Shown: piece by piece, positions 6,375 through 21,957 of the stretch
Layout: each line of letters opens with the position of its first letter
How positions within the stretch are numbered: position 1 is the stretch's first letter
NCBI RefSeq assembly: GCF_000426225.1
Contig: NZ_AUEY01000039.1
Span: 1 to 36,397 of the forward strand
From: Desulforegula conservatrix Mb1Pa
Lineage (GTDB): Bacteria > Desulfobacterota > Desulfobacteria > Desulfobacterales > Desulforegulaceae
DNA: 36,397 nucleotides
Reading direction: 5' to 3'
Made by a program: the position numbers and the translations under genes
Notes under the pieces: generated by a model
The model's database searches: none
The model's input: only the letters and a program-made list of their open reading frames with translations
Told to the model about the DNA's origin: nothing

Positions 6375-8576
6375 ATGAATGTAGGTCTTGATGGGCTTAT
6401 ACCTTTTTCAGGTATAGCCAAGGAAGCTTATGACTATTTTCTGGATTCGGCCCAGCGCAGCATTCTGTTTATGGATGCTTTAAGGAAAAGAGGGAATACC
6501 TATATCCAGCATCTGGATGAACAGCAGCCACCTGTCCTTGTATTCAAATACGAAATCCTCATGGATGCACGGACATTTGAGAAGAATCCTGCAAACTATG
6601 CGCTGGCCAAAATCATCGATCGCCGAGCTCCTAAACCGGGCCAGAAAGGCACTTCAGAGAGGCGTTCGGATACAGTTGATGATTATCAGCCTGAGAGTCC
6701 AACAAAAAGACCCATAGTCATAATTGACCCCCGGGCTGGTCATGGTCCAGGAATTGGCGGAAGCAAGCAGGATTCAGAAATTGGTATGGCTCTTAGCCAT
6801 GGCCATCCTGTATATTTTATATTTTTCTATACAAATCCGATGCCGAATCAAACCCTTGCAGACGTTAAAAACGCCGAGGTCAAATTTTTGGAAGAAATCC
6901 GAAGGCGTCATCCTGCTGCACCTGCACCTGCCATCATGGGTAACTGCCAGGGTGGATGGGCATCAGCACTTCTTGCCGCGAGCAGGCCTGATCTTGCCGG
7001 GCCTCTTGTATTGAACGGTTCCCCCCTTTCTTATTGGTCAGGGGTCGACGGCAAGAATCCCATGAGGTACAAAGGCGGACTCCTCGGCGGTGTTTGGATG
7101 AACTCTTTATTGAGTGACCTTTCCGACGGGAAATTTGACGGGGCGAATCTGGTCATGAACATGGAGATGCTCAATCCTGCAAATACCAACTGGAAGAAGC
7201 TTTATAATGTATACGCTAATGTCGATACAGAAGAAGAGCGTTTTCTTGACTTTGAAAAATGGTGGGGCGGCTTTTTCTGGATGACCAAGGCCGAGATCCA
7301 CAAGATTGTAGACGGCCTTTTTATAGGCAATCATCTTGTAAAGGGTGATTTTACGCTTGATGACGGCGAGGTCATAAATCTTAAAAATTTTGGTCATCCT
7401 GTTGTTGTATTTGCATCAGAAGGCGATAATATTACTCCCCCTCAACAGGCTCTTAACTGGATTGTTCAAGTTTATGGAACTGTTGACGAGATCAAGAGAA
7501 ACCAGCAGGTCATTGTTTATATCATCCACCCCAAAATAGGCCATCTGGGGATTTTTGTAGCTTCTTCAATCGCAAAGAAAGAACAGAGCGAAATAATAGG
7601 CAGCGTCGAGATGATCAATTATCTGGCTCCTGGCCTCTATGAGATGATTATAGAGCATGATCCGAGCAAGCCTTGGCTCAATGATTATGAAGTTAAATTC
7701 GAGGAAAGAACCATCGCTGATTTGATGGCACTGGACGATGGATTTGGAGATGAAGATGCGTTTGGTCATGTTGCCGCTCTTTCAGAAATAAATGATAGTT
7801 TTTACAATGCATTTATCAGCCCTTTTGTAAAAGCAGTTACAAACCGTAATTCTGCTCTGGCTCTGAAGCTGCTTCATCCTTTGAGGGTTCAGAGGTATGT
7901 GGTGTCAGATGTTAATCCTTTCATGATACCAGTTGCCACTCTTGCTCCATACGTCAAGGAAAACAGGGGTGAAATAGGGGATCAGAATCGCTTCAGGCTG
8001 ATTGAGAAGGATATTTCGGATTTGATCGAAGAAAGCTGGAATCTTTATCGCGATTTGCGTGACATGAGGGATGAGGCGCTTTTTAAGGCAATATATACAA
8101 ATCCTCTGGTTACACTCATGATTCCGTCAAAGACACAGACTGCAACTGATGCGGTTGATGGCGTGCTTGCCGTTGCTTCTAGAAAAGACGATTTGAAAAA
8201 AGATAAGAAAAAATGGGGTCAGGCAATGGAGGATGGCGGTTATGCTGACGGACTTATACGGGTTCTCGCAGCCGTAATTGCCATAGACAAAACAATAGAG
8301 GAAATTGAGATTAAGGAAGCCGGGCAGATAATAAGGACAAGGCCTGAGTTCAGGGATATGACGATAGAGCAGTTCCGAGCTCTTGTGGCTGCGCAGTTCA
8401 GGATGATTCAGGTGGACAGCAAAAAGGCCCTTGCCGCACTTCCAAAACTTCTCAAGACTCCTGAAGAAAGAGCTGAAGCCATTAAATTTGCACATCAGGT
8501 TGCTGCGGCAGGCGGAAAAACTCCGGGAAAGCAGGAAAAAGAATTGATAGCAAAGATTGAAGCCATGCTTAAATAA
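6375..8576 (+). CDS. DUF3141 protein, PHA-synthase-like alpha/beta hydrolase
   Basis: 733 residues, in the usual size range of DUF3141 proteins, which are related to class I/II PhaC. The order is: a helical N-terminus with AQRSILFMDALRKRGNTYIQH; an alpha/beta-hydrolase core starting RPIVIIDPRAGHGPGIGG (about 115); a nucleophile elbow GNCQGG with Cys191 in place of Ser, as in PHA synthases; a lid-like insert rich in Trp; an acid in SEGD351NITPP; and a base in KIGH390LGIF. A long helical C-terminal extension (about 430-733) has no match I recognise and ends in a basic/Glu-rich tail. All three catalytic residues of a Cys-His-Asp triad are therefore visible. Whether it polymerises hydroxyacyl-CoA or hydrolyses another acyl substrate cannot be told from sequence. 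GAGGAGG precedes the ATG by five bases. A degenerate dispersed repeat begins just after the stop codon, ahead of a terminator. Confidence 0.88.
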   Translation: MNVGLDGLIPFSGIAKEAYDYFLDSAQRSILFMDALRKRGNTYIQHLDEQQPPVLVFKYEILMDARTFEKNPANYALAKIIDRRAPKPGQKGTSERRSDTVDDYQPESPTKRPIVIIDPRAGHGPGIGGSKQDSEIGMALSHGHPVYFIFFYTNPMPNQTLADVKNAEVKFLEEIRRRHPAAPAPAIMGNCQGGWASALLAASRPDLAGPLVLNGSPLSYWSGVDGKNPMRYKGGLLGGVWMNSLLSDLSDGKFDGANLVMNMEMLNPANTNWKKLYNVYANVDTEEERFLDFEKWWGGFFWMTKAEIHKIVDGLFIGNHLVKGDFTLDDGEVINLKNFGHPVVVFASEGDNITPPQQALNWIVQVYGTVDEIKRNQQVIVYIIHPKIGHLGIFVASSIAKKEQSEIIGSVEMINYLAPGLYEMIIEHDPSKPWLNDYEVKFEERTIADLMALDDGFGDEDAFGHVAALSEINDSFYNAFISPFVKAVTNRNSALALKLLHPLRVQRYVVSDVNPFMIPVATLAPYVKENRGEIGDQNRFRLIEKDISDLIEESWNLYRDLRDMRDEALFKAIYTNPLVTLMIPSKTQTATDAVDGVLAVASRKDDLKKDKKKWGQAMEDGGYADGLIRVLAAVIAIDKTIEEIEIKEAGQIIRTRPEFRDMTIEQFRALVAAQFRMIQVDSKKALAALPKLLKTPEERAEAIKFAHQVAAAGGKTPGKQEKELIAKIEAMLK

Positions 8577-8577
8577 G

Positions 8578-8640
8578 GTGGTCTCGCAAAAAGTCATAAA
8601 CGGCTTCAGCGTCATGCCGGACTTGGCTCCGCGCATGTCT
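8578..8640 (+). repeat. Dispersed MITE-like repeat, copy 1 (left end only)
   Basis: The stretch starts GGTCTCGCAAAAAGTC and runs through CGTCATGCCGGACTTG. It matches copy 3 (19821-19932) read on the opposite strand over about 50 bases, and matches the central part of copy 2 (14948-15052). The right half is lost. It begins two bases after the DUF3141 stop codon, between that gene and its terminator. Confidence 0.6.
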
Positions 8641-8713
8641 GATAAGGAATTATTCAAATGATGGTGCGCGTATTGTTTATATAGAGTTCTTGGATGCTTT
8701 AACTTTCAAATAG

Positions 8714-8746
8714 AAGCCCTTCGGGAATATCGAAGGGCTTTTTTGT
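8714..8746 (+). terminator. Rho-independent terminator after the DUF3141 gene
   Basis: A perfect 10-bp stem (AAGCCCTTCG at 8714-8723 with its complement at 8731-8740) has a 7-base loop and runs into TTTTTT. Textbook form, about 140 bases beyond the stop codon. Confidence 0.9.
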
Positions 8747-8881
8747 GCTATCAGAAATAGAGCTTTTGCTTTTTCCAATACGACGCATAAATTCATAATT
8801 CTTGATCATTTTTTTTGTTTGATATAAACGATGTTTTTATGGTGAGAAAATATTCTAAAATATGAATTCCTGGGAGGTAAT

Positions 8882-9487
8882 ATGAAGATGTTGAAGTCTG
8901 TAAAGAGTCTTTTTGTCATTCTTATTGTTGGCATGTTTTGCTCTGGGTATGTGTTTGCGGATGAAGTTACTGATTCAATAAATGAAGGACTCGAGCACTA
9001 CAAAAAAGGCAACCACGCCGAAGCAGTAAACAGCCTGAATTTTGCCTCTCAGAAGATAGCACAGCTTAAGGCTGAGAAGATAAAAACACTCCTTCCAAAG
9101 CCCCTTGACGGCTGGAAGGCAGAAGAGCCTTCTTCCCAGGCTTCAGGAGCGGCTGTTTTTGGTGGCGGAGTTTCAGCCGAAGGAAAGTACAGTAAAAAAG
9201 ATAAAGGTTCCGTTTCCGTAAAATTCGTAACGGATTCTCCAATGCTCCAGAGCATGATGATGCTCTTCAGCAATCCTATGTTTGCTACTTCTGATGGCGG
9301 TAAACTTGAAAAAATCAATAATCAGAAAGCCATTGTCAAATTTGATGCGGCAAACAAGAGCGGAAATATCAATATAGTCGTTGCAAACAAGATTCTCGTC
9401 ACAGTTGAAGGTAATGATATTACCCAGGACGATCTAATGGCTTATGCCAAGGCTGTAAACTACGACCAGCTTGCTGCTATGCCTTAG
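8882..9487 (+). CDS. Small exported protein of unknown function
   Basis: 201 residues. An N-terminal signal peptide is clear: KMLKSVKSL basic start, hydrophobic core FVILIVGMFC, and a likely cleavage after VFA near residue 26, giving a periplasmic product. The mature part opens with a short TPR-like helical pair (INEGLEHYKKGNHAEAVNSLNFASQKIAQLK), then LLPKPLDGWKAEE, a Gly/Ala-rich patch and a predicted beta-rich region (GKYSKKDKGSVSVKFVTDS ... KAIVKFDAANKSGNINIVVANKILVTVEG). I do not recognise a named family. A strong GGGAGG lies six bases before the ATG, and a terminator follows within 15 bases, so it is a single-gene unit. It might bind or sense an envelope component, but nothing in the sequence shows this. 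Confidence 0.8.
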   Translation: MKMLKSVKSLFVILIVGMFCSGYVFADEVTDSINEGLEHYKKGNHAEAVNSLNFASQKIAQLKAEKIKTLLPKPLDGWKAEEPSSQASGAAVFGGGVSAEGKYSKKDKGSVSVKFVTDSPMLQSMMMLFSNPMFATSDGGKLEKINNQKAIVKFDAANKSGNINIVVANKILVTVEGNDITQDDLMAYAKAVNYDQLAAMP

Positions 9488-9501
9488 TTTTATTACTTAT
9501 G

Positions 9502-9540
9502 CCGGGGAGAAGTTCGTTTCACCCCGGTTTTTTTCTTTTT
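9502..9540 (+). terminator. Rho-independent terminator after the exported protein gene
   Basis: CCGGGG at 9502-9507 pairs with CCCCGG at 9522-9527. After one A-A mismatch the stem continues GAA/TTC around the loop GTTCGT. A long T-rich tail (TTTTTTTCTTTTT) follows. Confidence 0.9.
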
Positions 9541-9604
9541 TTGGGGGCTAAAATAGCTGTCAGCCTATGCAGTAAATCAAGGGTATGTCCGAGTCCTCAA
9601 GGAT

Positions 9605-9997
9605 TCAGAGTTGTTCAAGGAGAGCCCGTAGTTCGCCTTTTATGGGGAGAGCCTTGCCTGAATCGTCCACTATGGCGAATGTGACTTCTGCATCAACGCA
9701 TACCGTGTCTGTGTTTGCGAGAACGATTTTCTGGCTGATTTTCCCGCTTTTGTTTCCGAATTTTATGATCTTGGACACGACTTCGATAAAGTCTCCGAGA
9801 ACGGCCGCTTTATTATAGTTAATATTGATATTCACTACATAGAAGGATCGACCGTTTTTACGCCATTCGTCAAGATCTATCTTGCCGTCGAACATGGTCC
9901 ATCTTCCTTCCTCAAGGAATTCTAAATATCGGGCATTATTAACGTGACCATATACATCAAGATGATATCCTCTGATTTGTATGACCGGGTTTTGCAT
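9605..9997 (-). CDS. fadM: FadM-like acyl-CoA thioesterase (4HBT hotdog fold)
   Basis: 130 residues from the ATG at 9997, the same length as E. coli FadM (thioesterase III, about 132). The segment RGYHLDVYGHVNNARYLEFL is nearly identical to FadM and carries catalytic Asp14 in the D-x-x-GHVNN-x-x-Y motif. Further FadM-like stretches are VVNININYNKAAVLGD, KSGKISQKI and the C-terminal GELRALLEQL. FadM hydrolyses long-chain acyl-CoAs, including unusual beta-oxidation intermediates. The frame can be extended upstream by about 50 residues, but that part is not FadM-like. The ATG at 9997 has an AGAGG about 11 bases upstream, so I prefer the short form. It is divergent from the sensor kinase across about 100 bases, which makes coupled control possible but unproven. 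Confidence 0.88.
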   Translation of the reverse strand: MQNPVIQIRGYHLDVYGHVNNARYLEFLEEGRWTMFDGKIDLDEWRKNGRSFYVVNININYNKAAVLGDFIEVVSKIIKFGNKSGKISQKIVLANTDTVCVDAEVTFAIVDDSGKALPIKGELRALLEQL

Positions 9998-10101
9998 CAC
10001 TAATAACCTCTGAAAAAATAATAGCTTTTTATTAAATAAAACAAGGCTATCAAGGGTAAAGTTTCTTGTCAAACTATCATGTTTTAAATTAGGAGGGATA
10101 G

Positions 10102-11112
10102 TTGAATAAGTATATGTCCAATCTTTGGTCAAGAAGTGATCTTCTTGCAAAAACTCCGTGGTTCTTCCATCCGGTTACAATTCTTGCTATTTCGATTGGC
10201 CTTATAGCCATGTTTCTTTTTCTGTCTTTGTACTGGTTCCTGAAGGTGACGACAGATCTTGAAAATCTTATACTCAAGTTCAATATCGAGGCCGGCCAGT
10301 TTCTTATATCAAGAACATGGCTTGTAGTTGTTGTCCTGTCGGTTCTTGTGGCTTTGACATCTGCCGGCATTTTCATAATTTTTTTGTATCTTCTAAAGAC
10401 AATACAGTTGTATAGATTGCAGCATAATTTCATCAATAATTTTACCCATGAGCTTAAAACCCCGGTGACATCTTTGAAGCTTTATCTTGAGACATTTCTT
10501 AAATATGATCTGTCAAAAGAGGATCAGCATAAATATATTAGGTATATGATTCAGGACGTAGGCCGGCTTTCTGATAATATATCCAGGATATTGAACCTCG
10601 CCAGGATAGAAAGCAAACATTATGCGGGCGAGTTTGCACCAAAAAATGTTTACGAGTTTATTCGTAATCTTGTTGATGAAAATAGACACGTATTTGTCGA
10701 TGCAGATGTCAAGGTGCTTCCTCCGAAACATGGGAGCATTGTGTGCCAGGTCAATGACGTCCTTTTCGAAATGCTGATAATGAATATCATAACCAACGGG
10801 ATTAAATACAATAATTCTGATAAGCCTGCGATCAGGGTTTCTTTCAAGCGCATCTCTCAAAGGGTTGAAATTTATTTCCAGGATAACGGAATAGGGATTA
10901 GGAAAAACCAGCTTAATAAAATATTTAAAAAATTTTATCAGATTGGAATTTCTGATAATATGACAGCCAAAGGCAGCGGACTCGGTCTGTACATTGTTAA
11001 TAATATCGCCAGAATCCATAGCGGTAAGATTATCGCGCATAGTCGAGGAGCCTGGAAAGGTTCCATTTTTACACTTGTTCTTCCAGTCTCAGATGATTCA
11101 GGAAGTTCATAG
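10102..11112 (+). CDS. Membrane sensor histidine kinase with a short periplasmic loop
   Basis: 336 residues from a TTG start that sits five bases after AGGAGG (10091-10096); the next in-frame ATG at 10114 would be too far from it. Two membrane helices (about 23-48 and 73-98) enclose only about 25 periplasmic residues, and no HAMP or PAS domain is visible. HisKA follows with the H-box NNFTH116ELKTPVTSL. The HATPase part shows the N-box MLIMN228IITNGIKYN, the G1 box QDNGIGI (261-266) and the G2 box GSGLGLYIV (291-299). It should autophosphorylate at His116 and pass phosphate to the OmpR-type regulator encoded 37 bases downstream. The small sensor loop suggests sensing within the membrane or through a partner; the signal is unknown. 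Gene order (kinase before regulator) is less common for OmpR-type pairs. Confidence 0.93.
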   Translation: MNKYMSNLWSRSDLLAKTPWFFHPVTILAISIGLIAMFLFLSLYWFLKVTTDLENLILKFNIEAGQFLISRTWLVVVVLSVLVALTSAGIFIIFLYLLKTIQLYRLQHNFINNFTHELKTPVTSLKLYLETFLKYDLSKEDQHKYIRYMIQDVGRLSDNISRILNLARIESKHYAGEFAPKNVYEFIRNLVDENRHVFVDADVKVLPPKHGSIVCQVNDVLFEMLIMNIITNGIKYNNSDKPAIRVSFKRISQRVEIYFQDNGIGIRKNQLNKIFKKFYQIGISDNMTAKGSGLGLYIVNNIARIHSGKIIAHSRGAWKGSIFTLVLPVSDDSGSS

Positions 11113-11149
11113 TTCCTGATTTTGTGTTTTCTATTCTCCGGAGGGTGAA

Positions 11150-11878
11150 ATGTCTGAAGATAAAAAAAGAATACTCGTTGTTGAAGATGAAAAGCATATC
11201 GCAGAGGGGCTGAAACTTAGTCTTTCTCTTGAAGGATTTGAGGTTGAAATCGCTTCGGACGGAGGCGCGGCAATGCAGTTATGGAAAAGCTGGGCGCCTG
11301 ATCTTATCGTTCTTGATATAATGCTTCCGGTAATCGACGGCATGGCGGTGCTGAAAGGTATAAGGCTCGAAGATCAGAAGATTCCCGTACTGATTCTCTC
11401 AGCCAAGGGAGACCTCGAGGACAGAATAAAAGGACTGAAATTCGGGAGTGATGATTATCTTGCAAAACCATTCAATCTGGAAGAGTTTCTTTTAAGGGTG
11501 AGGCGGCTTCTCAAAAGGTCAGGATGGGAAACTGAAAAAAGTATGGAAGAGGGAGAAAGAAACCCCTATGAAGATGGAATTTACGAATTTGGCCCTAATA
11601 AAATAGATTTTATATCAGGCCAAGCGTTTCATGGTTCTGAAAAGATAAGCCTTACTCAGCAGGAAATAAAACTTATAAAGCTTTTTGTCATCAACAAGGG
11701 TAAACCACTCTCAAGGGCCAAATTGCTTGAGATAGGATGGGGATATAGCAGAGGTATGTCCACCAGAACTGTTGATAATTTTATAGTCAGGTTAAGAAAA
11801 TATTTTGAAGAAGACCCCAAGAATCCCGAGTATTTTAAAAGCAGAAGATCTATTGGATATGTGTTTGAGCATGAATGA
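11150..11878 (+). CDS. OmpR/PhoB-family response regulator
   Basis: 242 residues. The receiver domain (about 7-120) has the acidic pair in VVED12E13, phosphoacceptor Asp56 in LIVLD56IMLP, switch Ser84 (LILSAKG) and Lys106 (DDYLAKPF). The C-terminal winged helix (about 145-240) has KISLTQQEIKLIKLF, the recognition-helix region RTVDNFIVRLRKYFEEDP, and the wing-forming FKSRRSIGYVFE. GGAGGG precedes the ATG by six bases. It forms a kinase-regulator operon with the preceding gene. Targets are not evident; the divergent fadM promoter region is one candidate, by position only. Confidence 0.95.
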   Translation: MSEDKKRILVVEDEKHIAEGLKLSLSLEGFEVEIASDGGAAMQLWKSWAPDLIVLDIMLPVIDGMAVLKGIRLEDQKIPVLILSAKGDLEDRIKGLKFGSDDYLAKPFNLEEFLLRVRRLLKRSGWETEKSMEEGERNPYEDGIYEFGPNKIDFISGQAFHGSEKISLTQQEIKLIKLFVINKGKPLSRAKLLEIGWGYSRGMSTRTVDNFIVRLRKYFEEDPKNPEYFKSRRSIGYVFEHE

Positions 11879-11987
11879 TTTTTAGTTCCAAATTAAGGAA
11901 TATTATTCATTTTAACTGACAAATTATTATCTATGGATAGATTGTAAATCAAGTGGCAGTTCGGAATTTTTTAGGATTTACAACTAT

Positions 11988-12038
11988 ATTGGGCTTCATG
12001 AATATAATATGAACGAGCTGACGACCCAATTTTTTTTC
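11988..12038 (+). terminator. Possible terminator after the response regulator
   Basis: ATTGGG at 11988-11993 can pair with CCCAAT at 12025-12030. An inner TTCAT/ATGAA pairing strengthens the fold, and eight T residues follow. The loop region is long, so this is less certain than the other terminators here. Confidence 0.45.
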
Positions 12039-12055
12039 TGTTGACTCATCTGGCT

Positions 12056-12400
12056 TTATTCGATTAATCCCTCATTTTCCTTGCCACCATAAGGTTTGTA
12101 AATTGAGAAAATTGCCCACCATTCAAGGTCATTATCAAATTCAACAGCTACTGTCTCATTTTCAATTCTGGCTATTCTGCCGCTTATTTCAAGGATCAGT
12201 CGGCTTGCTCTTCCTGGTATTATTATTTCTACATCACAGTTTTGACCACTTTGAAAAGGAATGCCGCTTGATGTCCCGCTTAAACCATTCATGCTGATGT
12301 CTGTCATGGATACCGAATAAGTATTTCCATTTTCTTTATCTATCAATCTTGTCTGGGCAGAAAAGTTGATTCTGAGCCTTTTTCTCTTATCCTTATCCAT
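12056..12400 (-). CDS. PilZ-domain protein
   Basis: 114 residues from the ATG at 12400, essentially a single PilZ domain. The c-di-GMP-binding signature is seen as RKRLR near the start (R-x-x-x-R) and D-I-S-M-N-G (D-x-S-x-x-G) about 25 residues later, followed by the beta-barrel strands CDVEIIIPG, LILEISGRIARIENETVAVEFDN. The upstream extension of the frame to 12514 is hydrophobic and unlike PilZ proteins. An AGGA eight bases before 12400 supports the short start. It probably binds c-di-GMP and acts through a partner; no output domain is fused. Confidence 0.88.
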   Translation of the reverse strand: MDKDKRKRLRINFSAQTRLIDKENGNTYSVSMTDISMNGLSGTSSGIPFQSGQNCDVEIIIPGRASRLILEISGRIARIENETVAVEFDNDLEWWAIFSIYKPYGGKENEGLIE

Positions 12401-12647
12401 TAAAAATCCTGTAAAACATAAAAAATCAAAAAATAATGCATGATTAAGACCGTAAAACCTTAGTTGTAATGACATTAGTCTTACAGTTTCTGCGTCTGTA
12501 TTGCGATGCAGCACTTGTTGAATGCGCAGCTATTCTGCAACATATAGGAATATGCTTTGGGGCGGGAATAAATACAGCTTTTGCTCAAATAAAGATGTTT
12601 GTCTGCTGAATAATTTGCAGATTATCCGTCCGCATCATTTGAGCGTG

Positions 12648-12827
12648 TCATTCCTGACAGTCTTTATTTCTTCTGTCTTTTTCCCGTCTGCATATCCAGC
12701 CTATAGTTGTAATATACATATGGCCAAGGCTTTTTCTTATTCTTCGTTCACAACCTTTTCTGCTGTCACTTTTTTCAGCAGCAGACTTTTCTTCTGACAA
12801 CACTTCATTTTTTCTTTCTTCTTCCAT
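12648..12827 (-). CDS. Small basic protein of unknown function
   Basis: 59 residues from the ATG at 12827, which is preceded by a strong GGGAGG with six bases spacing (12833-12838 on the plus strand). The first half is highly charged (EEERKNEVLSEEKSAAEKSDSRKG); the second is compact and basic: CERRIRKSLGHMYITTIGWICRREKDRRNK. Two Cys and the aromatic GHMY/GWICRR motif look selected rather than random, but I recognise no family. An in-frame upstream ATG at 12869 lacks a ribosome-binding site. It points the same way as the PilZ gene, 247 bases upstream of it. The strong ribosome-binding site is the main support. Confidence 0.55.
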   Translation of the reverse strand: MEEERKNEVLSEEKSAAEKSDSRKGCERRIRKSLGHMYITTIGWICRREKDRRNKDCQE

Positions 12828-12972
12828 GATAACCTCCCGGCATTTAGGTTTAATTGCAGGCATAAACATGGAAAAGTTGTCTGTTAATGGTTCTTGGTTT
12901 CAGTCAGCGTTCTTGCGGAAGAACATATGAAAACCATTGATTATCAGACTTCTTTTTAAATAAATTTTTTAA

Positions 12973-13015
12973 CTCTCTATATGCGTTATAAGCACCTTTG
13001 TCGGCATATAAAGAG
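12973..13015 (-). terminator. Hairpin downstream of the PhaC-like gene
   Basis: Arms at 12973-12984 and 13004-13015 form a 12-bp stem with one mismatch, just beyond the 3' end of the PhaC-like gene on the minus strand. The sequence after it (TTAAAAAATTTATTT) is not a clean T run, so termination is only a possibility. Confidence 0.35.
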
Positions 13016-13021
13016 CGCGTA

Positions 13022-14575
13022 TTATTTTTTAGGTGCTTCACTGTCAAGTTCAAGCTGGAAAAAAACCGGGCCCTTATTATTGTCAAATTTTTTGTGGAGC
13101 GCGTATTTCGAATCAGGATGAGACCAGGAAGTGGCTATAGCTACATGCCCTTTAGGGAAAGCTGCAACTTCTGCATTGCAATATTTTAAAGGTGCAAGAG
13201 CAGAATCTTTTTCAACAAGGTCGTCATTCTCTCCATAACAAATTAGCCATTTTATACCCTTTTCTTTAATATACCTGAAATCTATTTTTTTATCAAAAAG
13301 AGTTATTGGAGTTGTTCCATCATCTTTAATAGGGTTGTTATAGGAAAGAAAACTCATTCTGGTTATATCCATAGGCAGATCGGTTTTTTCGTATGTAAGC
13401 CAGTAATTAAGGGCCGCGGCAGTCTTGCTGATGGATGCATTTTCATTCCCGGGATAATCAAACATTGACATGTCCCTGTAGAGGGCAACGAGCGGAAATT
13501 CTAACTCTATGCTCTTCAGCTTGTATACCCATGCCATTATGTCACCATCAGCAACCTTGATGCCGTTTGGGAGGGCTTTTGCCCCGTATTCAAGTTTGTT
13601 GAATCTCGGCGGGAGGCTTTTAAGAAAATTGTTCAATCCAACACTGAGCGATCCGTCAATTGGCGCAACGCATGTGATGAGCGCATCTGCCAGTCCGTCA
13701 AGTTTGCCCGAGGCAATATTGAGAAATGCAAAGAAACCTCCCTGGCAATAACCGTTCAAGGTCACCATCTTGCCATTGTTTTCTTTGATTTTTTTACAGA
13801 AAAAAAACGTGTCGTTTACGTCGTCTTCAGGTGTCATTATCTGCACAGCTTCATGGAGCTTGATGTTCTTCATTATCCGTATGTAAGTCGGGATTCCTTT
13901 GTTGGAAAAACTGTGAACATAGCTTCTTTGCTCGTCAGGTAGAAAGGCGAGAATGTTCGGGCCAAGTACGTAAGGAGGAAGAATAAGCACAGGTTTGCAG
14001 GATGTATTAACTTCAACTCCGGGAATGGTTGGCATTACCTGATACATTATAAATCTGTCAGTTTCCGCTACCTTAATATCTCTGCCCTGTTCGAAGTGAA
14101 ATCCGAAATATTTTCCTGATTCTTTTATTGCTTTTGGGTAAACGTTTGTCAGCAGATGTATCATTCTTGCTTTTCTGTCCATGAAATTTTTGAGGGTTTC
14201 TCCATCTTTTATTTCAAAGACTGTATTGAGAAAAGCGTCTGTGGCATCCTTTATGTCTTTTGTCCCGTAAGTGCTTATGGCTTTTAAAACTCCCAGAAAA
14301 CTTCTTGCTGTCAGATCAAGGTTCATGTCTGCAAGGCTGACGTAGGAATGCAGATTCTCAAGAGGTGAGTTTGTGAGAATTTTTTCCTTTTCCACGTTGG
14401 TAAAATACTGGGAAGCGGAAAAGTAAGGAACTGCGAATTCGTTCATGTAAGCCAGCATGTCAAGAAAATAATTCTGGGCCACTTCCATTTGCTCTGTAAT
14501 GGTTTCAAAAGGGCATGCAATGTTTTTAGAGCCTGTCAGAGGATTTTCGAACTTATCGAAAAAGAAGTTGCGCAT
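13022..14575 (-). CDS. PhaC-like polyhydroxyalkanoate synthase / alpha-beta hydrolase
   Basis: 517 residues. After a helical N-terminus (1-170) the hydrolase core begins at KPVLILPPYVLGPNIL (about 194). The nucleophile elbow is GYC277QGG, the Cys form typical of PHA synthases; the acid is Asp451 in CYGENDDLV and the base His477 in PKGHVAIATS. The lid segment holds FLSYNNPIKDDG, and ALYRDMSMFD precedes it. It resembles PhaC more than the DUF3141 protein does, but no phaA, phaB, phaE or phasin gene is nearby, and the N-terminus is not the classical one. It may polymerise hydroxyacyl-CoA or hydrolyse an acyl-CoA or ester; sequence alone does not decide. AAGGA precedes the ATG by seven bases. It is a single gene followed by a hairpin at 12973. 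Confidence 0.8.
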   Translation of the reverse strand: MRNFFFDKFENPLTGSKNIACPFETITEQMEVAQNYFLDMLAYMNEFAVPYFSASQYFTNVEKEKILTNSPLENLHSYVSLADMNLDLTARSFLGVLKAISTYGTKDIKDATDAFLNTVFEIKDGETLKNFMDRKARMIHLLTNVYPKAIKESGKYFGFHFEQGRDIKVAETDRFIMYQVMPTIPGVEVNTSCKPVLILPPYVLGPNILAFLPDEQRSYVHSFSNKGIPTYIRIMKNIKLHEAVQIMTPEDDVNDTFFFCKKIKENNGKMVTLNGYCQGGFFAFLNIASGKLDGLADALITCVAPIDGSLSVGLNNFLKSLPPRFNKLEYGAKALPNGIKVADGDIMAWVYKLKSIELEFPLVALYRDMSMFDYPGNENASISKTAAALNYWLTYEKTDLPMDITRMSFLSYNNPIKDDGTTPITLFDKKIDFRYIKEKGIKWLICYGENDDLVEKDSALAPLKYCNAEVAAFPKGHVAIATSWSHPDSKYALHKKFDNNKGPVFFQLELDSEAPKK

Positions 14576-15083
14576 TTTTAAATCCTTATTTTTATCCTGT
14601 TCAAATCTTAAAATGGCCTATTCCATGTCAATTGGCCTAAAATTGTTGCATGGACAGCGCGACATGCTTTGTGATCTTAATTATATAAAGTAAGCAAATA
14701 AATGACCTATTTCAATATATACTTGTTAATTTTACATTTAATTACTGAAAAAAAGCAAGATTTGAAAAATAACGGTTGACTGAAACTTGGGGCGTTTCAA
14801 TTGCAATGTGTTTTGGTAGATGACTAATCTATTTGAATAGTCGCTTCATCATGGTCTTAATGGTATTTTTGTAAGGGAGCAGATATTGCCTGTTATCTTA
14901 AGGATTTTATCTGCCCTTGATTCTGTAGACAATTTCTAAAAAAGCCTTTTTATGCGTCAGAGTCATGCCGGACTTGATCCTGTATCTTTGTGTTTTCAGA
15001 TACTTTTGGATTCCGGTCTGCGCCGGAATCCAACTTTTTACGACCTTGTCAATTTTAAAAGTCACTCTGGAAAGTTAATAAAT
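14576..15083. other. Intergenic region holding repeat copy 2
   Basis: About 508 bases between the start of the PhaC-like gene and the 3' end of the YciA-like gene. The part near 14576-14947 is AT-rich with no gene I can support; the part at 14948-15052 is a dispersed repeat, listed separately. Confidence 0.4.
14948..15052 (+). repeat. Dispersed MITE-like repeat, copy 2
   Basis: The core reads GTCATGCCGGACTTGATCC, a short spacer with TTTTCAGA, then GGATTCCGG, CTGCGCCGGAATCC and ACTTTTTACGACC. The GGATTCCGG/CCGGAATCC pair forms a hairpin. The right end ACTTTTTACGACC is the inverse of the left end of copy 1 (GGTCTCGCAAAAAGT), which implies that the full element has terminal inverted repeats. 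It lies between convergent or tandem minus-strand genes, near the 3' end of the YciA-like gene. Confidence 0.7.
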
Positions 15084-15584
15084 TCAGCACTCATTAGGGT
15101 TTTCGCTGCAAGCCTTGAGCTGCTTTTTTTCGGCAAGACGCGCCTTTTTTCTTACAATGGCTTCTCTGTTTCTTCTTTTTTCATTGTCCGTCTCAAGTAT
15201 GAGTTGGGGCATGAGTCTTGGTCGCAGGTTTTCATCAAGAGAGACAAATGTAAGGTAAGCAGAGGCGACATGCCTTGTTTTTCCAGTCAGAACTGTTTCT
15301 GCTTCAACCCGAACTCCAACCTCGCATGATGAAGTCCCTACCAGATTAAGACTTGCTTTGATGGTCAGGATATCACCAATGAAAACGGGGCTATGGAAGT
15401 CCATGTGATCAATTGACGCTGTTACAGCATTGCTTCTGCAGTGTCTGATGGTGGCAACTCCGGCAGCATTGTCAATGGCCTTCATTATTACACCACCATG
15501 AACATTGCCCGCTATATTTGCATCCTGGGGAGACATCAGCTCTCTAAAAACCACACTGCTTTCACTGACCTTTTTGGGATTCAC
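15084..15584 (-). CDS. YciA/BACH-type acyl-CoA thioesterase
   Basis: 166 residues from a GTG start at 15584, with AGGAG eight bases upstream. It is a hotdog domain of the acyl-CoA hydrolase type: FRELMSPQDANIAGNVHGGVIMKAIDNAAGVATIRH, with the Asn-x-His-Gly-Gly and D-N-x-A-G motifs, then SIDHMDFHSPVFIGD and HVASAYLTFVSLDE. The C-terminal 35 residues are basic and likely extended. Such enzymes form oligomers and release free acid and CoA from short- to long-chain acyl-CoAs. It is the second hotdog thioesterase in the window after FadM; the two belong to different subfamilies. No operon partner is apparent. Confidence 0.88.
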   Translation of the reverse strand: MNPKKVSESSVVFRELMSPQDANIAGNVHGGVIMKAIDNAAGVATIRHCRSNAVTASIDHMDFHSPVFIGDILTIKASLNLVGTSSCEVGVRVEAETVLTGKTRHVASAYLTFVSLDENLRPRLMPQLILETDNEKRRNREAIVRKKARLAEKKQLKACSENPNEC

Positions 15585-16074
15585 TCAAATTTCTCCTTTT
15601 GAACAATTTACAGATAATAATCTGATTTGTACCTGGCAGGGCCAGGAACTAAATGGATGTGCTATTTCAAACTCGGTTTTCTGGCTGCGCTGCCTCGTAT
15701 TTCAGCACGAGTCTTTACCTTCAGGAAGGACATCAATGAAGGTCTGGTCACAATATATCAATGGGAATAATTTTTCAATATACATTATGTTGTATATTTG
15801 ATTTTGAATACGCATTTTTTTGATCTTTATGAACTAAGTCGATGCCGGTTTATTGCCGCGCCTCGTTGCCCACTATAAAATTCAGGATTGAAAGTGGGGG
15901 CAATTATGTTGCTGGGGGATGCGAAATGATGGCTCCGAAAAAAGGTGAGGCCACAAAAAGTCAGATTTTAGTTTCTGGATTCCTGTCCCTGGCTTCAACA
16001 GGGACAGGTCTTCTCTTGACTGCGGCTATTAAAGATCTATCACAAATGAGCTTTTATGTTTAATTGTCTGCTAA
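15585..16074. other. Intergenic region with a possible decayed repeat
   Basis: About 490 bases with no gene I can support. A short open frame at 15842-16063 lacks a ribosome-binding site and overlaps repeat-like DNA, so I do not call it. Confidence 0.4.
15944..16010 (+). repeat. Degenerate repeat-like segment with a perfect hairpin
   Basis: A GAGGCCACAAAAAGTCAG segment resembles the left terminus of the dispersed repeat. TCTGGATTCC follows, as in the repeat, but then comes a different hairpin: a 10-bp perfect stem (15982-15991 with 15999-16008) around GCTTCAA. It may be a decayed fourth copy. It lies 66 bases beyond the 3' end of the acyltransferase gene, but without a T run on that strand it is a poor terminator. 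Confidence 0.4.
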
Positions 16075-16968
16075 TCAGCTTGCGTTTTTCAGGGATTCTA
16101 TCAGTTCGTCTTTTTCACGCCAGAGGGTATTTACCCAGTTTTGAAATTCTTCCTTGAACTTAGGATCGTTGAAATAGTCTCCAAAAAGTTTTGCGTCTTT
16201 AGGTATGAATTCTGCCTTAACAACTATCCTGCTTGTGCCTCCGCAGATAAATTGCCAGAATGTGGGAATCCCTTCAGGATAATAAATTGTAACATTAATT
16301 ATGCCTGTGATGAATTCTTCCATTGAAGACAGTGCAAATGAAATTCCGCCGGCTTTGGGGAGCAGAAGGTTTTTGTAAGGAGATTTCTGGATTTTGTGTT
16401 TCCTGTGATGAAATCTTGTTCCTTCCATAAAGTTCATTATGGATACGGGCTTGTTTTTGTATTTTTCACAGGCTTTTTTAGTTGCCAGAATGTCTTTACC
16501 TGCCAGATGTGGGTTCTTTTTAATAAAATCGCTGCTGTATCTTTTCATGAATGGATAGTCCAGTGCCCACCATATTACACCCATTACAGGTACCCAGATC
16601 AGCTCTTTTTTAAGGAAAAATTTAAGGAAAGGGATCCTGAAGTTAAAGGTTTTTTGGAGCACGAGAATGTCAACCCATGATTGATGGTTGCATACCACAA
16701 GATACCATTCATTTCGATCAAGGCCGTCGAGTCCTGATACATCCCAGCTAATTTTATGGAAGAGGGCAAGATTGAAATTGTTTACTGAAATCCAGAGCGT
16801 GGCAATCAGATCTATTATTCTTGAAAGGATTTTTTTTGTTTTTGGAAATGGAATTACAAGTTTGAGAAAAGATACCGGGAGAAGAAAAAAGCCCCAGAAA
16901 ACGGTATTAACACAATAAAGCAGAAAAAGAATTGACCCCTTAACCGGGCCAGGAAAAAACGACAGCAT
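16075..16968 (-). CDS. yihG: YihG-type membrane acyltransferase (PlsC family)
   Basis: 297 residues, close to E. coli YihG (about 310). One or two membrane helices span about 12-40. The acyltransferase motifs are NH95QSWVD100 (catalytic His-Asp), then WWALDYPFMKRYS, and NFMEGTR185 for phosphate binding. Long stretches parallel YihG: DGLDRNEWYLVVCNHQSWVD, FLKKELIWVPVMG, GKDILATKKACEKY, and the C-terminal NTLWREKDELIESL. Proteins of this type use acyl-CoA or acyl-ACP to acylate lysophospholipid at the inner membrane; the exact acceptor of YihG-like enzymes is less certain than for PlsC. AGAGGAG precedes the ATG at 16968. It sits with thioesterase and PhaC-like genes but in its own transcription unit. 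Confidence 0.88.
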   Translation of the reverse strand: MLSFFPGPVKGSILFLLYCVNTVFWGFFLLPVSFLKLVIPFPKTKKILSRIIDLIATLWISVNNFNLALFHKISWDVSGLDGLDRNEWYLVVCNHQSWVDILVLQKTFNFRIPFLKFFLKKELIWVPVMGVIWWALDYPFMKRYSSDFIKKNPHLAGKDILATKKACEKYKNKPVSIMNFMEGTRFHHRKHKIQKSPYKNLLLPKAGGISFALSSMEEFITGIINVTIYYPEGIPTFWQFICGGTSRIVVKAEFIPKDAKLFGDYFNDPKFKEEFQNWVNTLWREKDELIESLKNAS

Positions 16969-17152
16969 GACTTACTCCTCTTAGATGGCATGTCTGTTTA
17001 ATAAAGTTAATAGCTTTCGATTATATATTGGCGGTTATCAAATATGTCAATGCCCTGAAGGCTCTTTAATGAAGATTTTGTATAAGATGTTATGCTTTGT
17101 TTGGGTATTACCCTGAATTTATGGTGTATACGGTGGCTGGGGCGTACAAAAA

Positions 17153-19348
17153 TCAATTGAGCGGTTTTATGACCATTTCATGCTGACTTCCTACCGGAGG
17201 AATTGTGACGATGACTTCCTGAACCCTAACTTTTTTTACAGTGTTCTGAACTACTGCCGAAGAGCCTTCTCCTGAAACAACCGTTCCAGCTGCAATTGCA
17301 CCCTCAACCTTGAGTATGGAAACCGGACTTATGCTATCCATCCACGCTTCGAAATCATGTTTTTCATTAAGTATTCTTTCAATCTCTTTATTTGTTTTTT
17401 CAAGTTCATGAGGCTCTTCATTCAGATGCTGTTCTAAAAGATCCTGATCTCTGAAAAGTAAAGCGATTCTTGATTCGGTCTTTTCAATAATGTCCTGAAG
17501 CTGCTTGATTCTTGTTTCAATGACGTTTTCTTTTGTCTTGTCTGATCCAGCTTCTGCAAGAGCGGTCTTGAGGCTTCTTATTTCGATGGATGCCCTGTCC
17601 TCAATGTGCGCAAGCTTTGTTTGCTCTTCCTGGTTTTTTTTGAGTTCATTTGCAATACTATAGATAAGCTTTTCAATCTTTTTTGCCCACGTCCTCTTGA
17701 ATTCAAGTCTGGATTCTATTTTCCTTAACTCCTGTTTCTCATGGTCAAGGGTTCCTATTTTAATTCTGCAGCTCCGGGAGGTTTCAGAACCTACTTCCCT
17801 TGCAATCATACCTCGTTTTGCAGAAATATCGGATGAAATTATTGTTCCCTTTTTGATTTCAACAGCTCCGCTGGTTATTATGGTTGAGTCAATTATCTCA
17901 TTTTTTACAAAGATATCACCATAGGAGTGTATATTTGAGCTGTTTATGAACTTGGCGGTTAAAATGCCCATGCATGATATCGTCGCGTCTGTTACACCTC
18001 CTGAAACGGTGACACTCCCGGTCGCTTCTATGATCCCGCCCGCAATTTCTGCCGCTGTTATATTTGCACCCTTAACTTTAAAGCCGTCCTGTATCGATCC
18101 TTTGATTATGATATTGCCTTCAAATACTATGTGACCGGTTTGATAACCTACGTCTCCCTTTATCTCTATCTCAGGAAGGATGCTGATTATTCCGCCAAAA
18201 GATAGAACTGGCTGGCCGCTTATCTGGGCAATGGCTTTCAGATTGCTTTCGTCCATAACTATGCCATTTCCTGCAAGCATGTTTACATCAATTGTCCTTG
18301 GAACCTGTATGACTTGCCCGAGTACGTCTATTCCGTCATTGCTGGGTTCGGCAGGAACTTTTTCTGCAACAATATCTCCTGCATTAACGAAAGGGATTGT
18401 GCCCCTGTCTCTGAAATCAATCTGATCACCCTCAACCACAGAACATGGTTTTAAGTATTCTGTATCAAAATAGTAGTTTATGACAGCATTTCTGCCCGGT
18501 TCCGTTTTGATGCCCTGGGCAAGCTTGAACAGCTTCTGGGTGCTTTTGTGGTATTTCAGAAAGCCTTCAATAAGGGAATTGTCGACAACACCATAGGATA
18601 TGCCAAGTCTGTCCAACTCTGTCAGAACATCATTTACAGTTATCGGAGCCTTGTCATTTTTAAGGATCAGATATGCTGAAATTTTATCTTCCGAGAGTTT
18701 TATTTCAAAGAGATCTGATTGATCTGTCTGATCCTGATTTTGCCCAGGATTTTCCTGAATGATTTCTTCCTCAATAAGTTTGCCGTCTTTAAATGAGTAT
18801 TTTGAATTTTTTCTGCCCTGTGATGCGAGGAGATCATCCCTCTTATTTTTTGTAAGAAGCCCCCCCGCAACCAGTATGTCTCCAACAAGAACTATCTCTC
18901 TTTTTTGATTGAAAATATTGACCTGGTATTTGAGAATTTTATCCACAACATCCTTTGCTATGAGATTGTTTTTTATAAGCAATTGGGCGAATTCGACCTC
19001 CATTTGTCTGAGATCCCACGCTTTTTCACTGTCTTCAATCAGCTGGAGCTGTTCACTGGTCAAAAGGCCCTGCTCACGGATAAAGGATTCGATATTGTTT
19101 TTTTTTCCGTTCTTCAATGCCTCATTGTACAGGTTTGCAATTAGTTGGACTGTGTTTTTATCTATTATTCCATATAGATATCCTATGGTCAGGATAATGG
19201 GTAAGCCTGTTTTTCCACTTTCCTTTGAGGCTGCCTGCTTGTGGCTGCATTTAGGACATTTGACCACCTTCCCGGATATGCTCGCAGGTGCTCTGTATCT
19301 TGATTTGCAGAGCTCGCATTGTATGATTATGTCCTGAGTTTCTGGCAT
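17153..19348 (-). CDS. FapA/DUF342-domain protein with N-terminal zinc ribbon
   Basis: 731 residues. The N-terminus has a zinc ribbon of the MJ0042 type (Cys11, Cys14, Cys31, Cys34: C-x-x-C ... CPKC). Residues about 50-190 are helical with repeated RDDLL/LLTxxQ-type segments resembling general-secretion N-terminal modules (GDILVAGGLLTKNKRDDLL). The DUF342/FapA region (about 215-520) contains DRGTIPFVNAGDIVAEK, GIDVLGQVI and a long series of Gly-Ile/Val turns of a right-handed beta helix (GDVGYQTGHIVFEGNIIIKGSI). A coiled coil spans about 545-665, and a small beta-rich C-terminus follows. FapA-family members are linked to cell-pole or flagellar assembly in Vibrio, but no flagellar genes are here, so the role is open. 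AAAGG precedes the ATG. Confidence 0.82.
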   Translation of the reverse strand: MPETQDIIIQCELCKSRYRAPASISGKVVKCPKCSHKQAASKESGKTGLPIILTIGYLYGIIDKNTVQLIANLYNEALKNGKKNNIESFIREQGLLTSEQLQLIEDSEKAWDLRQMEVEFAQLLIKNNLIAKDVVDKILKYQVNIFNQKREIVLVGDILVAGGLLTKNKRDDLLASQGRKNSKYSFKDGKLIEEEIIQENPGQNQDQTDQSDLFEIKLSEDKISAYLILKNDKAPITVNDVLTELDRLGISYGVVDNSLIEGFLKYHKSTQKLFKLAQGIKTEPGRNAVINYYFDTEYLKPCSVVEGDQIDFRDRGTIPFVNAGDIVAEKVPAEPSNDGIDVLGQVIQVPRTIDVNMLAGNGIVMDESNLKAIAQISGQPVLSFGGIISILPEIEIKGDVGYQTGHIVFEGNIIIKGSIQDGFKVKGANITAAEIAGGIIEATGSVTVSGGVTDATISCMGILTAKFINSSNIHSYGDIFVKNEIIDSTIITSGAVEIKKGTIISSDISAKRGMIAREVGSETSRSCRIKIGTLDHEKQELRKIESRLEFKRTWAKKIEKLIYSIANELKKNQEEQTKLAHIEDRASIEIRSLKTALAEAGSDKTKENVIETRIKQLQDIIEKTESRIALLFRDQDLLEQHLNEEPHELEKTNKEIERILNEKHDFEAWMDSISPVSILKVEGAIAAGTVVSGEGSSAVVQNTVKKVRVQEVIVTIPPVGSQHEMVIKPLN

Positions 19349-20056
19349 TGTTTGCCTTTCTTAGATCATGGCATTAATAGAGACGGCCGTGTTTTTTTTG
19401 CTGGTTTTCGTATCTATGCTTTACCAGCTCGTCAAATTGAGAAGCCTTACGATACATAGAATCATTTTATTTTTATATCGGTTTGTTTTAGATTTTTTTA
19501 AATAATAAATTGTCTTTATTATAAAATCTATATTTTTGTTTTGCTTGTTTTTATAAAAAACATTGTGTTTCGGTCATATCGCAATATGCGGTATGGTAAT
19601 TGTCTTGTTATACTGAATGATGTCTGGAAAATGGCGGGAGTGAGGGATTTATCCATGCCAGGGATTTCTGCTAAAAGTCTCAAATACATAAAATCACCTC
19701 TAAGAATTGTCTGCTTGCGCGTTAGCTGTGTCAGCGGCTTACACATCAAAATTCTGATTTATAGAGGTAGGTTAATATGTTTATAGAGCATTAATAATGA
19801 CAATATAGCAAGAAGTCCGATTTTCGTCATTCCGGCGCATGCCGGAATCCAGAACTGTCTGAAAATACTGGATACCGGATCGAGTCAGGCATGACGCTGA
19901 TACCCTTTTCTGACTTTTTACGAGATCATCAAGAATAATTTGGACTCTCCTTGATCATGTTAATTGACAATTCGTTTTTTTATAAAATAAGGTTATGGAC
20001 GGAATAAATAATTACTTTGACTGATACTTGAAAATAGAAACTCTTTGAGGTGACCA
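19349..20056. other. AT-rich divergent intergenic region with repeat copy 3
   Basis: About 708 bases separating the FapA-like gene from the flavoprotein gene on the other strand, so it must contain both promoters. Small open frames at 19528-19786 on both strands lack ribosome-binding sites. Apart from the repeat at 19821-19932, I see nothing more. Confidence 0.4.
19821..19932 (-). repeat. Dispersed MITE-like repeat, copy 3 (most complete core)
   Basis: Read on the minus strand it begins GATCTCGTAAAAAGTCAG, then CAGCGTCATGCCTGACTC, GATCCGGTATCCAGT, TTTTCAGACAG, and ends with TTCTGGATTCCGGCATGC and GCCGGAATGACG. The last part forms a hairpin (ATTCCGGC/GCCGGAAT). It shares the CGTCATGCC core and the TTTTCAGA spacer with copy 2, and the AAAAAGTC terminus with copy 1. 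Confidence 0.75.
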
Positions 20057-21760
20057 ATGGCTAAAAAGGTTGTTGTTATAGGCGCTGTGGCTCTGGGATC
20101 AAAGGCTGCATGCAGATTTAAACGCATAGATCCTGAATCGGAAGTGATTATACTGGATCAGGATGAGTATATTTCGTATGGCGGATGCGGCATTCCATAT
20201 TATGTATCAGGAGATGTAAGCGATTATAAGGAGCTTCAGAGTACAAGCTTTCATATGGTCAGGGATGTGGATTTTTTCAGGAAGGTAAAAGGCATTACCG
20301 CTTTTACTTCTACGAGGGTCACAAAGATCGACAGGGCAAGTAAAGAAGTGCATGCCATCAACAGGGACGGGGTTTTAACAATTTTCCCCTATGATAAACT
20401 TGTAATTGGCACTGGTACCATTCCGAGAAAACTTGATATCCCAGGAAAGGATCTTGGCAATATATACACAGTTGCAAATCTTCATGACGCCATTGCCATA
20501 AAGGAGAGGGTCGTTAAGGGCGAGGCCTCGTCAGTTGTTATAGTGGGTGGGGGGTTCATCGGTCTTGAGATGGCCGAGGCGTTTACTGATATGTGGGGTT
20601 TGGATACCGCAGTTATTGAACTCCGGGACCAGATAATGCCTGGATTTGTGAGCAAAGGCATGTCTGCCATGGCCAAGAATCTTATGAGCGAGAAGGGCGT
20701 CGTTTTTTATTTGGGAGAAACGGTCACTGCCTTTGAAGGCGAAGGCAATGTCGAAAGGGTTATTACTGATAAAAGAGCCATTGACGCGGATCTTGTTATT
20801 CTTGCGGCAGGCATCAAGCCAAATGTGGCACTTGCTGCTGAAGCAGGTCTTGATGTCGGGGAAACCGGAGGAATAGTTGTAAACAGATTTCTTCAGACCT
20901 CTGATCCTGACATTTATGCAGGTGGTGACTGCATAGAGCTTAAAAACCTCGTGTCTGGCAAAGCCGGATTTTATCCCCTTGGATCAATGGCAAACAGGCA
21001 GGGGCGGGTAATCGGAACAAATCTTGCCGGCGGCAAGGCTGAATTCCCTGGGGCGGTGGGAAGTTTTGTGGTGAAGATTTTCGATAATGCCCTTGCTGGT
21101 GCCGGGCTTACCATAGAAACGGCAAGGGCCTGCGGGTTTGATGCCATCAGTGTTCAGATGTGTCAGCTTGACAGGGCTCATTTTTATCCTGACAAGGAAC
21201 TCATGTTCCTTGAGCTTGTCGTTGAAAAGAATACTAAAAGGGTGCTTGGCATCCAGGGTATAAGTGGTAAAGGAGATGCTCTTGTGGGTCGCATAAATGC
21301 TGTGGCTGCTCTTCTTGACAGAAAACCTGTTATCCAGGATATAAGCAATCTTGAACTTGCCTATTCTCCGCCTTTTTCATCAGCCATGGATATAGTGAAT
21401 GCTCTTGCCAATGTGGCTGATAATGTTCTCGACGGTTATCTCGAGGCCGTTGATGCGGAATCCTTCGAAAAATACTGGGAACAAGTGCAGTCAGGAGATG
21501 TCTGTCTTATAGACTGCAGAGCCTTTCCTGACGCAAAGCCTTTTGTTGAAAAATATCCGGGCACTTGGAATAGCATACCCCAGGATGAGTTGAAGGACAG
21601 GATTTCAGAAATTCCTTCGGACAAAAAGGTTGTGCTTGTCTGCAATACTGGAGTCAGATCTTTCGAGGCCCAGTTGAATCTTCGCGAGCTTGGATTTGAT
21701 GATACTCTGAGTGTCCAGGGCGGTATGGCCATGCTTCGTAAATACGGACTCGGAAAATAG
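20057..21760 (+). CDS. CoA-disulfide-reductase-like flavoprotein fused to rhodanese
   Basis: 567 residues. The FAD-binding half starts KKVVVIGAVALGSKAAC, a variant of the G-x-G-x-x-G loop with Ala and Leu in it. The single redox Cys44 in YGGCGIPYYVSG is typical of CoA-disulfide reductase/NADH oxidase-type enzymes. The NAD(P)H site is VVIVGGGFIGLEMAE (about 160-175), and a second FAD motif is TSDPDIYAGGDC. A dimerisation domain (about 330-455) follows. The C-terminal rhodanese domain (about 470-567) has the active Cys529 in VCNTGVRS. Such fusions reduce CoA disulfide, persulfide or polysulfide; rhodanese would handle sulfane sulfur, which suits a sulfur-metabolising anaerobe. GAGGTGA precedes the ATG by three bases. 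A palindromic terminator follows. Confidence 0.92.
   Translation: MAKKVVVIGAVALGSKAACRFKRIDPESEVIILDQDEYISYGGCGIPYYVSGDVSDYKELQSTSFHMVRDVDFFRKVKGITAFTSTRVTKIDRASKEVHAINRDGVLTIFPYDKLVIGTGTIPRKLDIPGKDLGNIYTVANLHDAIAIKERVVKGEASSVVIVGGGFIGLEMAEAFTDMWGLDTAVIELRDQIMPGFVSKGMSAMAKNLMSEKGVVFYLGETVTAFEGEGNVERVITDKRAIDADLVILAAGIKPNVALAAEAGLDVGETGGIVVNRFLQTSDPDIYAGGDCIELKNLVSGKAGFYPLGSMANRQGRVIGTNLAGGKAEFPGAVGSFVVKIFDNALAGAGLTIETARACGFDAISVQMCQLDRAHFYPDKELMFLELVVEKNTKRVLGIQGISGKGDALVGRINAVAALLDRKPVIQDISNLELAYSPPFSSAMDIVNALANVADNVLDGYLEAVDAESFEKYWEQVQSGDVCLIDCRAFPDAKPFVEKYPGTWNSIPQDELKDRISEIPSDKKVVLVCNTGVRSFEAQLNLRELGFDDTLSVQGGMAMLRKYGLGK

Positions 21761-21880: not shown

Positions 21881-21957
<77 letters not shown>

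Follow-up and report, generated by a model that had tools for sequence, protein, structure and literature searches.

The window analysed here is the whole 36,397-nucleotide stretch of Desulforegula conservatrix Mb1Pa (contig NZ_AUEY01000039.1). It contains three dispersed copies of a short repeat, which a sequence-only reading had described as gene-free and similar to a miniature inverted-repeat transposable element (MITE). The locus raises two questions: what kind of element the repeat is, and by what it was moved. The best explanation, with a probability of about 85%, is a non-autonomous DNA transposon (MITE) whose ends match IS1182-like insertion sequences (IS) of related bacteria, which was most likely moved in trans, and which carries a dimer of CGTC-tagged repetitive extragenic palindromic (REP) hairpins. 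An IS1182-like DDE transposase of related bacteria would most likely act on the MITE through the common 20-bp ends. The insertions lie at AT-rich, mostly intergenic A-N4(or 5)-T sites with duplication of 4–5 bp, and two CGTC-type REP hairpins are carried in inverted orientation between the ends.

Copy number and consensus structure

The source genome (G000) is a 4.47-Mb draft in 178 contigs with a completeness of 96.41%, and the window is its contig 39. A 19-base core of the repeat, GTCATGCCGGACTTGATCC, had 369 matches in this genome at no more than 2 mismatches (reversed control, 0). With the middle window copy as query, at least 42 matches were obtained (40 of 461 candidates scored). A profile was built from 24 full copies, selected so that their ends were TG and CA and including the window copy at 19798–19931. 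Search of a 400-kb sample of the genome (20 stretches picked by position) with this profile detected 41 elements, among which 23 were complete or almost complete; this extrapolates to about 450 copies in total.

The element is approximately 134–135 bp long, ends in TG...CA and contains two inverted hairpins and no gene. Its consensus start TGATGGaCTCGCAAAAAGTC and end GACTTTTTGCGACCTTGTCA form an imperfect 20-bp terminal inverted repeat (TIR). Inverted ends had been recognised in the sequence-only reading, where CTCGTAAAAAGTC was only the inner part of the real TIR; the length given there, 110–130 bp, was too short against the actual 134 bp. Hairpin 1 (consensus positions 36–63) reads CGTC-ATGCCGGA-CTTGA-TCCGGCAT-CCAG. 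Hairpin 2 (positions 81–107) faces it and reads CTGG-ATTCCGGC-CTGC-GCCGGAAT-GACG.

Target-site duplications

Flanks were analysed in 65 full copies, all distinct, which had been selected blind to flanking sequence (11 from the sample, 1 from the window, 51 from core, TIR or copy-2 loci and 2 from transposase-family loci). An exact 4-bp direct duplication was present beside TG...CA in 40 of the 65, with 1.7 expected when right flanks were shuffled among copies. Seven of the remaining 25 had an exact 5-bp duplication. The left 4 bp were preceded by A in 62/65 copies and the right 4 bp were followed by T in 55/65; the target is therefore A-N4-T. Duplications together with this target are the mark of a transposase. 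The source genome thus shows a short TIR-bounded element with target-site duplications, high copy number and no transposase gene, as in a MITE, and the earlier proposal of a gene-free MITE family is borne out by the core matches, the consistent ends and the duplications. Mean pairwise identity among the 65 full copies was 79% (range 56–98%), so most copies are not recent. The several hundred copies probably date from an old burst and are now in decay.

Insertion sequences with the same ends

Related genomes were searched in a set of 389 genomes of the class, all labelled as the same order except G000. The TIR was found (no more than 1 mismatch) in 195 of the 389 and the reversed pattern in 1. 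In one relative (G024), several contigs had a TIR at roughly 230 bp from their beginning, through which an IS of approximately 1.88 kb was recognised, with a transposase ORF (open reading frame) reaching the TIR. One full transposase was scanned against Pfam and matched DUF772 (PF05598), DDE_Tnp_1_6 (PF13751) and DDE_Tnp_1 (PF01609), all over cut-off. A homologous transposase was present in 55/389 genomes. Among the matches listed, TIR-like ends (at least 26/32) were found on both sides in 25 of 30 IS loci. The other five failed at one side (scores 17, 17, 18, 18 and 24), and a contig end truncates at least one of them. The IS are 1879–1924 bp long; members of the IS1182 family measure about 1.3–1.9 kb.

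Sixteen of the 25 two-ended IS copies had an exact duplication of 4–6 bp, and all 11 copies with an exact 4-bp duplication lay in A-N4-T. MITE and IS therefore agree in ends, duplication and target rule, and it is this agreement between sequences that points to action in trans. At one locus (L229, genome G088) an IS copy directly adjoins a hairpin MITE whose ends are the same. The sequence-only reading had proposed to look for a transposase gene with the termini of the repeat; such a gene was found in related genomes and not in G000.

Several results weigh against this interpretation. No exact 4-bp or 5-bp duplication was present in 18/65 full MITE copies, and 9/25 two-ended IS copies were likewise without duplication. 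The window genome is the sole member of its family in the comparison set, and the evidence of insertion comes from flanks and not from a comparison with empty sites. The best NCBIfam model for 4/4 proteins scanned was IS1182, at 149.7–169.5 bits against a cut-off of 270; because of this score the transposase is named IS1182-like and not IS1182. The margin of the IS-end score is thin, as the best internal ORF stretch of similar length reached 18–25 (30/30 at or below 25) against the threshold of 26/32. With the transposase of the relatives' IS as query no match was obtained in G000, nor was PF13751 found there, so that partner and MITE were not seen together in that genome. Finally, 121 distinct TIR-bounded elements of 60–450 bp were collected from loci outside G000, and the number of recognised REP units per element was two in 41, one in 34 and none in 46. 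The same ends thus also carry other interiors.

Candidate transposases in the source genome

Because no such transposase was found in G000, the MITE copies of this genome look orphaned. Remnants of DDE_Tnp_1 were considered as partner and rejected. Four matches were found, none with fitting ends, and near one pair there was only a decayed MITE. In contig 133 (L137, 1040–1207) another TIR-like sequence, which has neither hairpin nor transposase ORF, stands directly behind a MITE. The possibility that an autonomous element begins at this site (L137:1188) was rejected, since no transposase ORF follows it.

It is unlikely that the same MITE was moved by another transposase, for example one lost from G000 or encoded in sequence that the draft lacks. 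The draft state of the assembly and the failure to find a partner in it would agree with such a mover, as would the hairpin-less TIR-like site beside the MITE of contig 133. However, no transposase ORF follows that isolated TIR, and ends, duplication length and A-N4-T rule are common to the MITE and the IS1182-like elements.

Mobilisation of the hairpin pair as single-stranded DNA by a REP-associated tyrosine transposase (RAYT), as a so-called REPIN, is very improbable. Two inverted REP hairpins are present as in a REPIN, Y1_Tnp had 24 matches in G000 (two full-length, many at contig ends), and the first-hairpin motif was detected in 2/10 scanned Y1 loci. The exact TIR core, however, was found in 0/10 of these loci. 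Both full-length Y1 genes encode IS200-like proteins as judged by eye, and the scanned Y1 protein scored 140.9 bits with IS200 (cut-off 55) and 39.3 bits with RAYT (cut-off 80). Moreover, the conserved ends of the repeat form a TIR that lies beyond the hairpins and comes with duplications and a target rule, and the tag is CGTC instead of GTAG. A RAYT/REPIN origin was dismissed on the TIR, the duplications and the IS200-type Y1. Separately, the IS200-like gene is full-length twice and broken at many contig ends of G000, which suggests that a recently active multi-copy IS200 fragments the assembly.

Hairpins carried by the element

In the G000 consensus, both hairpin arms have an unpaired CGTC tag, a CCA tail, a stem of 8–9 bp starting with two A-T pairs and a loop of 4–5 bases. 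In relatives the second stem pair is often C-G. The tags of the dimer are directed outward and the tails face each other. By their sequence, the hairpins fit the description of CGTC-tagged REPs in the sections of a published survey that deal with this class (PMC3733652). By stem and loop length only, the G000 element consists of a family-1-like and a family-2-like unit. The sequence-only reading had named REP-like hairpins as the alternative to a MITE; this holds in part, as both hairpins match the REP description and lie within the MITE.

REP-like units (no more than 5 mismatches) were scanned in the 400-kb sample of G000. All 61 were located within the MITE, against 0 units for the reversed control; in the sampled sequence the CGTC REPs have thus spread as part of the MITE. 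A contig scan for hairpin plus TIR yielded at least 120 stretches. Among the 80 listed, 78 bear titles of Delta- or Desulfobacterota-type organisms and the other two are 'uncultured bacterium' and 'Proteobacteria bacterium'. As the scan required one arm CCGG[A/C]ATGAC near the TIR, such arms are over-represented, and the stems CTCCGG, CCCCGG, CCCCGT, TACCGG, CACCGG and TTCCCG cannot match its pattern. In these 120 stretches 129 units with a perfect 7-bp stem were found, of which 108 had both TIRs nearby, 6 had one, 8 lay at an edge and 7 had none. The proportion 108/129 is biased upward because the stretches were selected for hairpin and TIR; the 61/61 figure from G000 is free of that bias.

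Fifty of the 121 TIR-bounded elements from outside G000 were 133–135 bp long (44 exactly 135). Forty two-unit elements were tabulated, and 34 of them measured 133–135 bp despite spacer splits of about 0/17/24 or 8–9/17/15. The loop was GAAA in 80/98 27-base units from relatives, with tag and tail fixed. The sequence GCGAAAGC forms a DNA mini-hairpin of unusual stability. Two variants were observed besides. At L159, L161, L170 and L198, from several genomes, the same TIRs enclose another interior (GACGGCAAAGTAAAAAGCTCC...), a different MITE family on those ends. At L253, L274, L306, L321 and others, further palindromes lie within the hairpin loops and increase the length from 135 bp to about 158 or 180–188 bp.

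Stem changes were tested on 23 distinct 27-base units, which were recognised by tag, tail and length and not by pairing. Stem cells were paired in 98.1% (82.1 in shuffles). Two-sided changes affected 27 stem cells against 7.3 in shuffles (0/500 as high; slid controls 0–7), and 5/7 stem pairs changed on both sides against 3.0, a value reached by 4/500 shuffles. Further pair types numbered 8 against 6.2 and were reached by 56/500 shuffles, so that one of five measures was unexceptional. Kinship among the units inflates these statistics. Unlike across genomes, compensatory changes were few within G000.

The two-sided stem changes with fixed loop, tag and tail, and the near-constant 133–135 bp despite shifting spacers, are the grounds for a further reading, in which the CGTC REP dimers form an independent selfish cassette that spreads inside DDE-transposon MITEs, its hairpins kept by a structure-dependent step of its life cycle. 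This reading is doubtful, and template-switch correction of palindromes is another possible source of the stem changes. One sole clear example of a CGTC REP dimer with different ends (GGGAACCTCTAA...) was seen in a 110-bp element (L316, 7762–7871), with no duplication seen. It is possibly another vehicle for the dimer, as would be expected of a cassette that changes vehicles.

Copies in the window and their gene context

All three repeat copies proposed for the window were recovered with the full-copy profile. The copy at 19798–19931 (minus strand) is full-length (profile positions 1–134, 129.5 bits, E = 1.1e-39, a value that is partly circular as this copy is among the 24 in the profile). Its left TIR, TGATGATCTCGTAAAAAGTC, lies at 19912–19931 on the minus strand with 2 mismatches to TGATGGnCTCGCAAAAAGTC, and its diverged right TIR was placed by alignment to the consensus end at 19798–19817 (minus). 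Hairpin 1 (19869–19896, minus; consensus 36–63) is CGTC-type with tag CGTC and tail CCA, and hairpin 2 (19825–19851, minus; consensus 81–107) is CGTC-type and inverted. The flanks are TTCT and TTAT, with 3/4 bases identical. This copy had been placed at 19821–19932, and each copy had been said to retain a single terminus; that was mistaken here, where both ends are kept. The common core, TTTTCAGA and the hairpin of GGATTCCGG noted at the same time were present on direct reading of the sequence.

The copy at 14936–15051 (plus strand) has a shortened left TIR, an intact right end and a loss of 9 bp beside the right TIR, as determined by consensus alignment (profile positions 20–134, 74.0 bits, E = 1.4e-22). 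It lies between ATTT (14932–14935) and ATTT (15052–15055), with A before and T after; these flanks were judged by eye with the rule already known. Its hairpin 2 (15006–15033, plus) was found terminator-like by pattern scan and stands directly before CTTTTT because of the 9-bp loss. Such terminator-like sites numbered 13 in 8500–20100 versus 10.7 in shuffles and are not enriched. Some copies may accidentally serve as transcription terminators. The copy at 8576–8632 (plus) is truncated on the right and consists of the left TIR (2 mismatches, at 8576) and most of hairpin 1 (profile positions 3–58 at 8578–8632, 36.7 bits, E = 4.4e-11). It starts on the final base of the stop codon of the ORF at 6375–8576. 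A fourth, decayed copy suggested at 15944–16010 was discarded. With filters off it gave E = 0.11, the best window score after the three copies, and 10/490 random window segments aligned equally or better.

Another view, that the repeats do not move but are regulatory hairpins (terminators or mRNA stabilisers) maintained for their function and alike by convergence, was weighed against placement and folding. ORFs of at least 100 codons, called by a simple greedy rule, covered 84% of the sample, and the midpoint was inside such an ORF for only 4 of the 44 elements of sample and window. This mostly intergenic position, the terminator-like window copy and the stem pairing maintained across genomes are in favour of function. 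Genes flanking the elements were oriented +/+ in 13, -/- in 11, -/+ in 10 and +/- in 4 cases, with one side undetermined in 2. The elements did not clearly depart from sample gaps of at least 100 bp (51, 63, 31 and 19). The full copy folds little beyond shuffles (DNA z -0.78, RNA z -1.55). Given also the target duplications, the conserved ends outside the hairpins, the decay of the window copies and the few compensatory changes within G000, convergent regulatory hairpins are a highly improbable explanation.

A second palindromic repeat with ends like CACCTCTAAgAATTG (3 and 5 end mismatches) was seen at 19691–19772, adjoining the full MITE copy. The related end GCCACCTCTAAAAATTG had 17 matches in G000 at no more than 2 mismatches (control, 0), and two elements with ends of this type have the 4-bp duplications ATAA and TTTA (L065:687–827 and L068:10800–10957). 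An Rfam scan of the window gave tRNA only (a tRNA gene at 21884–21957, minus strand).

Comparison with known systems

The 2013 survey of CGTC REPs (PMC3733652) states in its abstract that they 'apparently lack a dedicated transposase', and leaves the mobiliser open. The REPs described there resemble the G000 hairpins in the CGTC tag (variants TGTC and CCTC), 8-bp stems starting with two A-T pairs, 4- or 5-base loops, the CCA tail, the occurrence as inverted pairs and the mostly intergenic position. There they have no transposase and, for the most part, no regular flanks, whereas the G000 hairpins lie within a TIR-bounded transposon. The main text of the survey does not contain the terms Desulf or Geobacter. 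For H. neapolitanus it describes CGTC dimers within 41-bp palindromes, perhaps a parallel to the MITE-borne dimers. No report of CGTC REPs within a TIR-bounded MITE was found in open-access papers, a search that did not cover ISfinder.

REPINs and RAYTs, the subject of PMC3116915 and other papers, share with the G000 MITE the inverted pair of REP hairpins and the hundreds of copies. They differ in the GTAG tag, against CGTC here, where no RAYT was found and TIR and duplications lie outside the hairpins. QMITE2 of Coxiella burnetii is, by its description in PMC5896051, likewise a MITE containing a REP; unlike the G000 element it has a GTAG REP, a length of 150–190 bp and duplications of 7–11 nt. 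The IS of the relatives resemble the IS1182 family in their single-ORF DDE transposase, and ISPse1 is given in the pertinent part of PMC3281130 with perfect 16-bp inverted repeats and a 4-bp duplication. IS1272, according to the passages on it in PMC5678879, replaces stem-loops without duplication, in contrast to the relatives' IS and the G000 MITE, which show duplications.

In this order a vehicle for CGTC REPs is visible, namely a MITE bounded by TIRs for which a transposase group, a target rule and duplications can be recognised, and mobilisation of these REPs thereby becomes experimentally testable. The stem changes across genomes are a natural mutant series for the role of the hairpin, and G000, where copies number in the hundreds and a partner was not found, would illustrate well how a MITE burst is left orphaned. 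A known MITE of IS1182 type is MITEPye1 of Paracoccus yeei, which by its description in PMC11578231 belongs to another bacterial class and has 1–3 copies per chromosome, to be set beside the 369 core matches in G000; a CGTC REP dimer is not mentioned in the parts of that paper that describe it. MITEs of IS1182 type are therefore already known, and the CGTC-REP cargo is the part for which no report was found.

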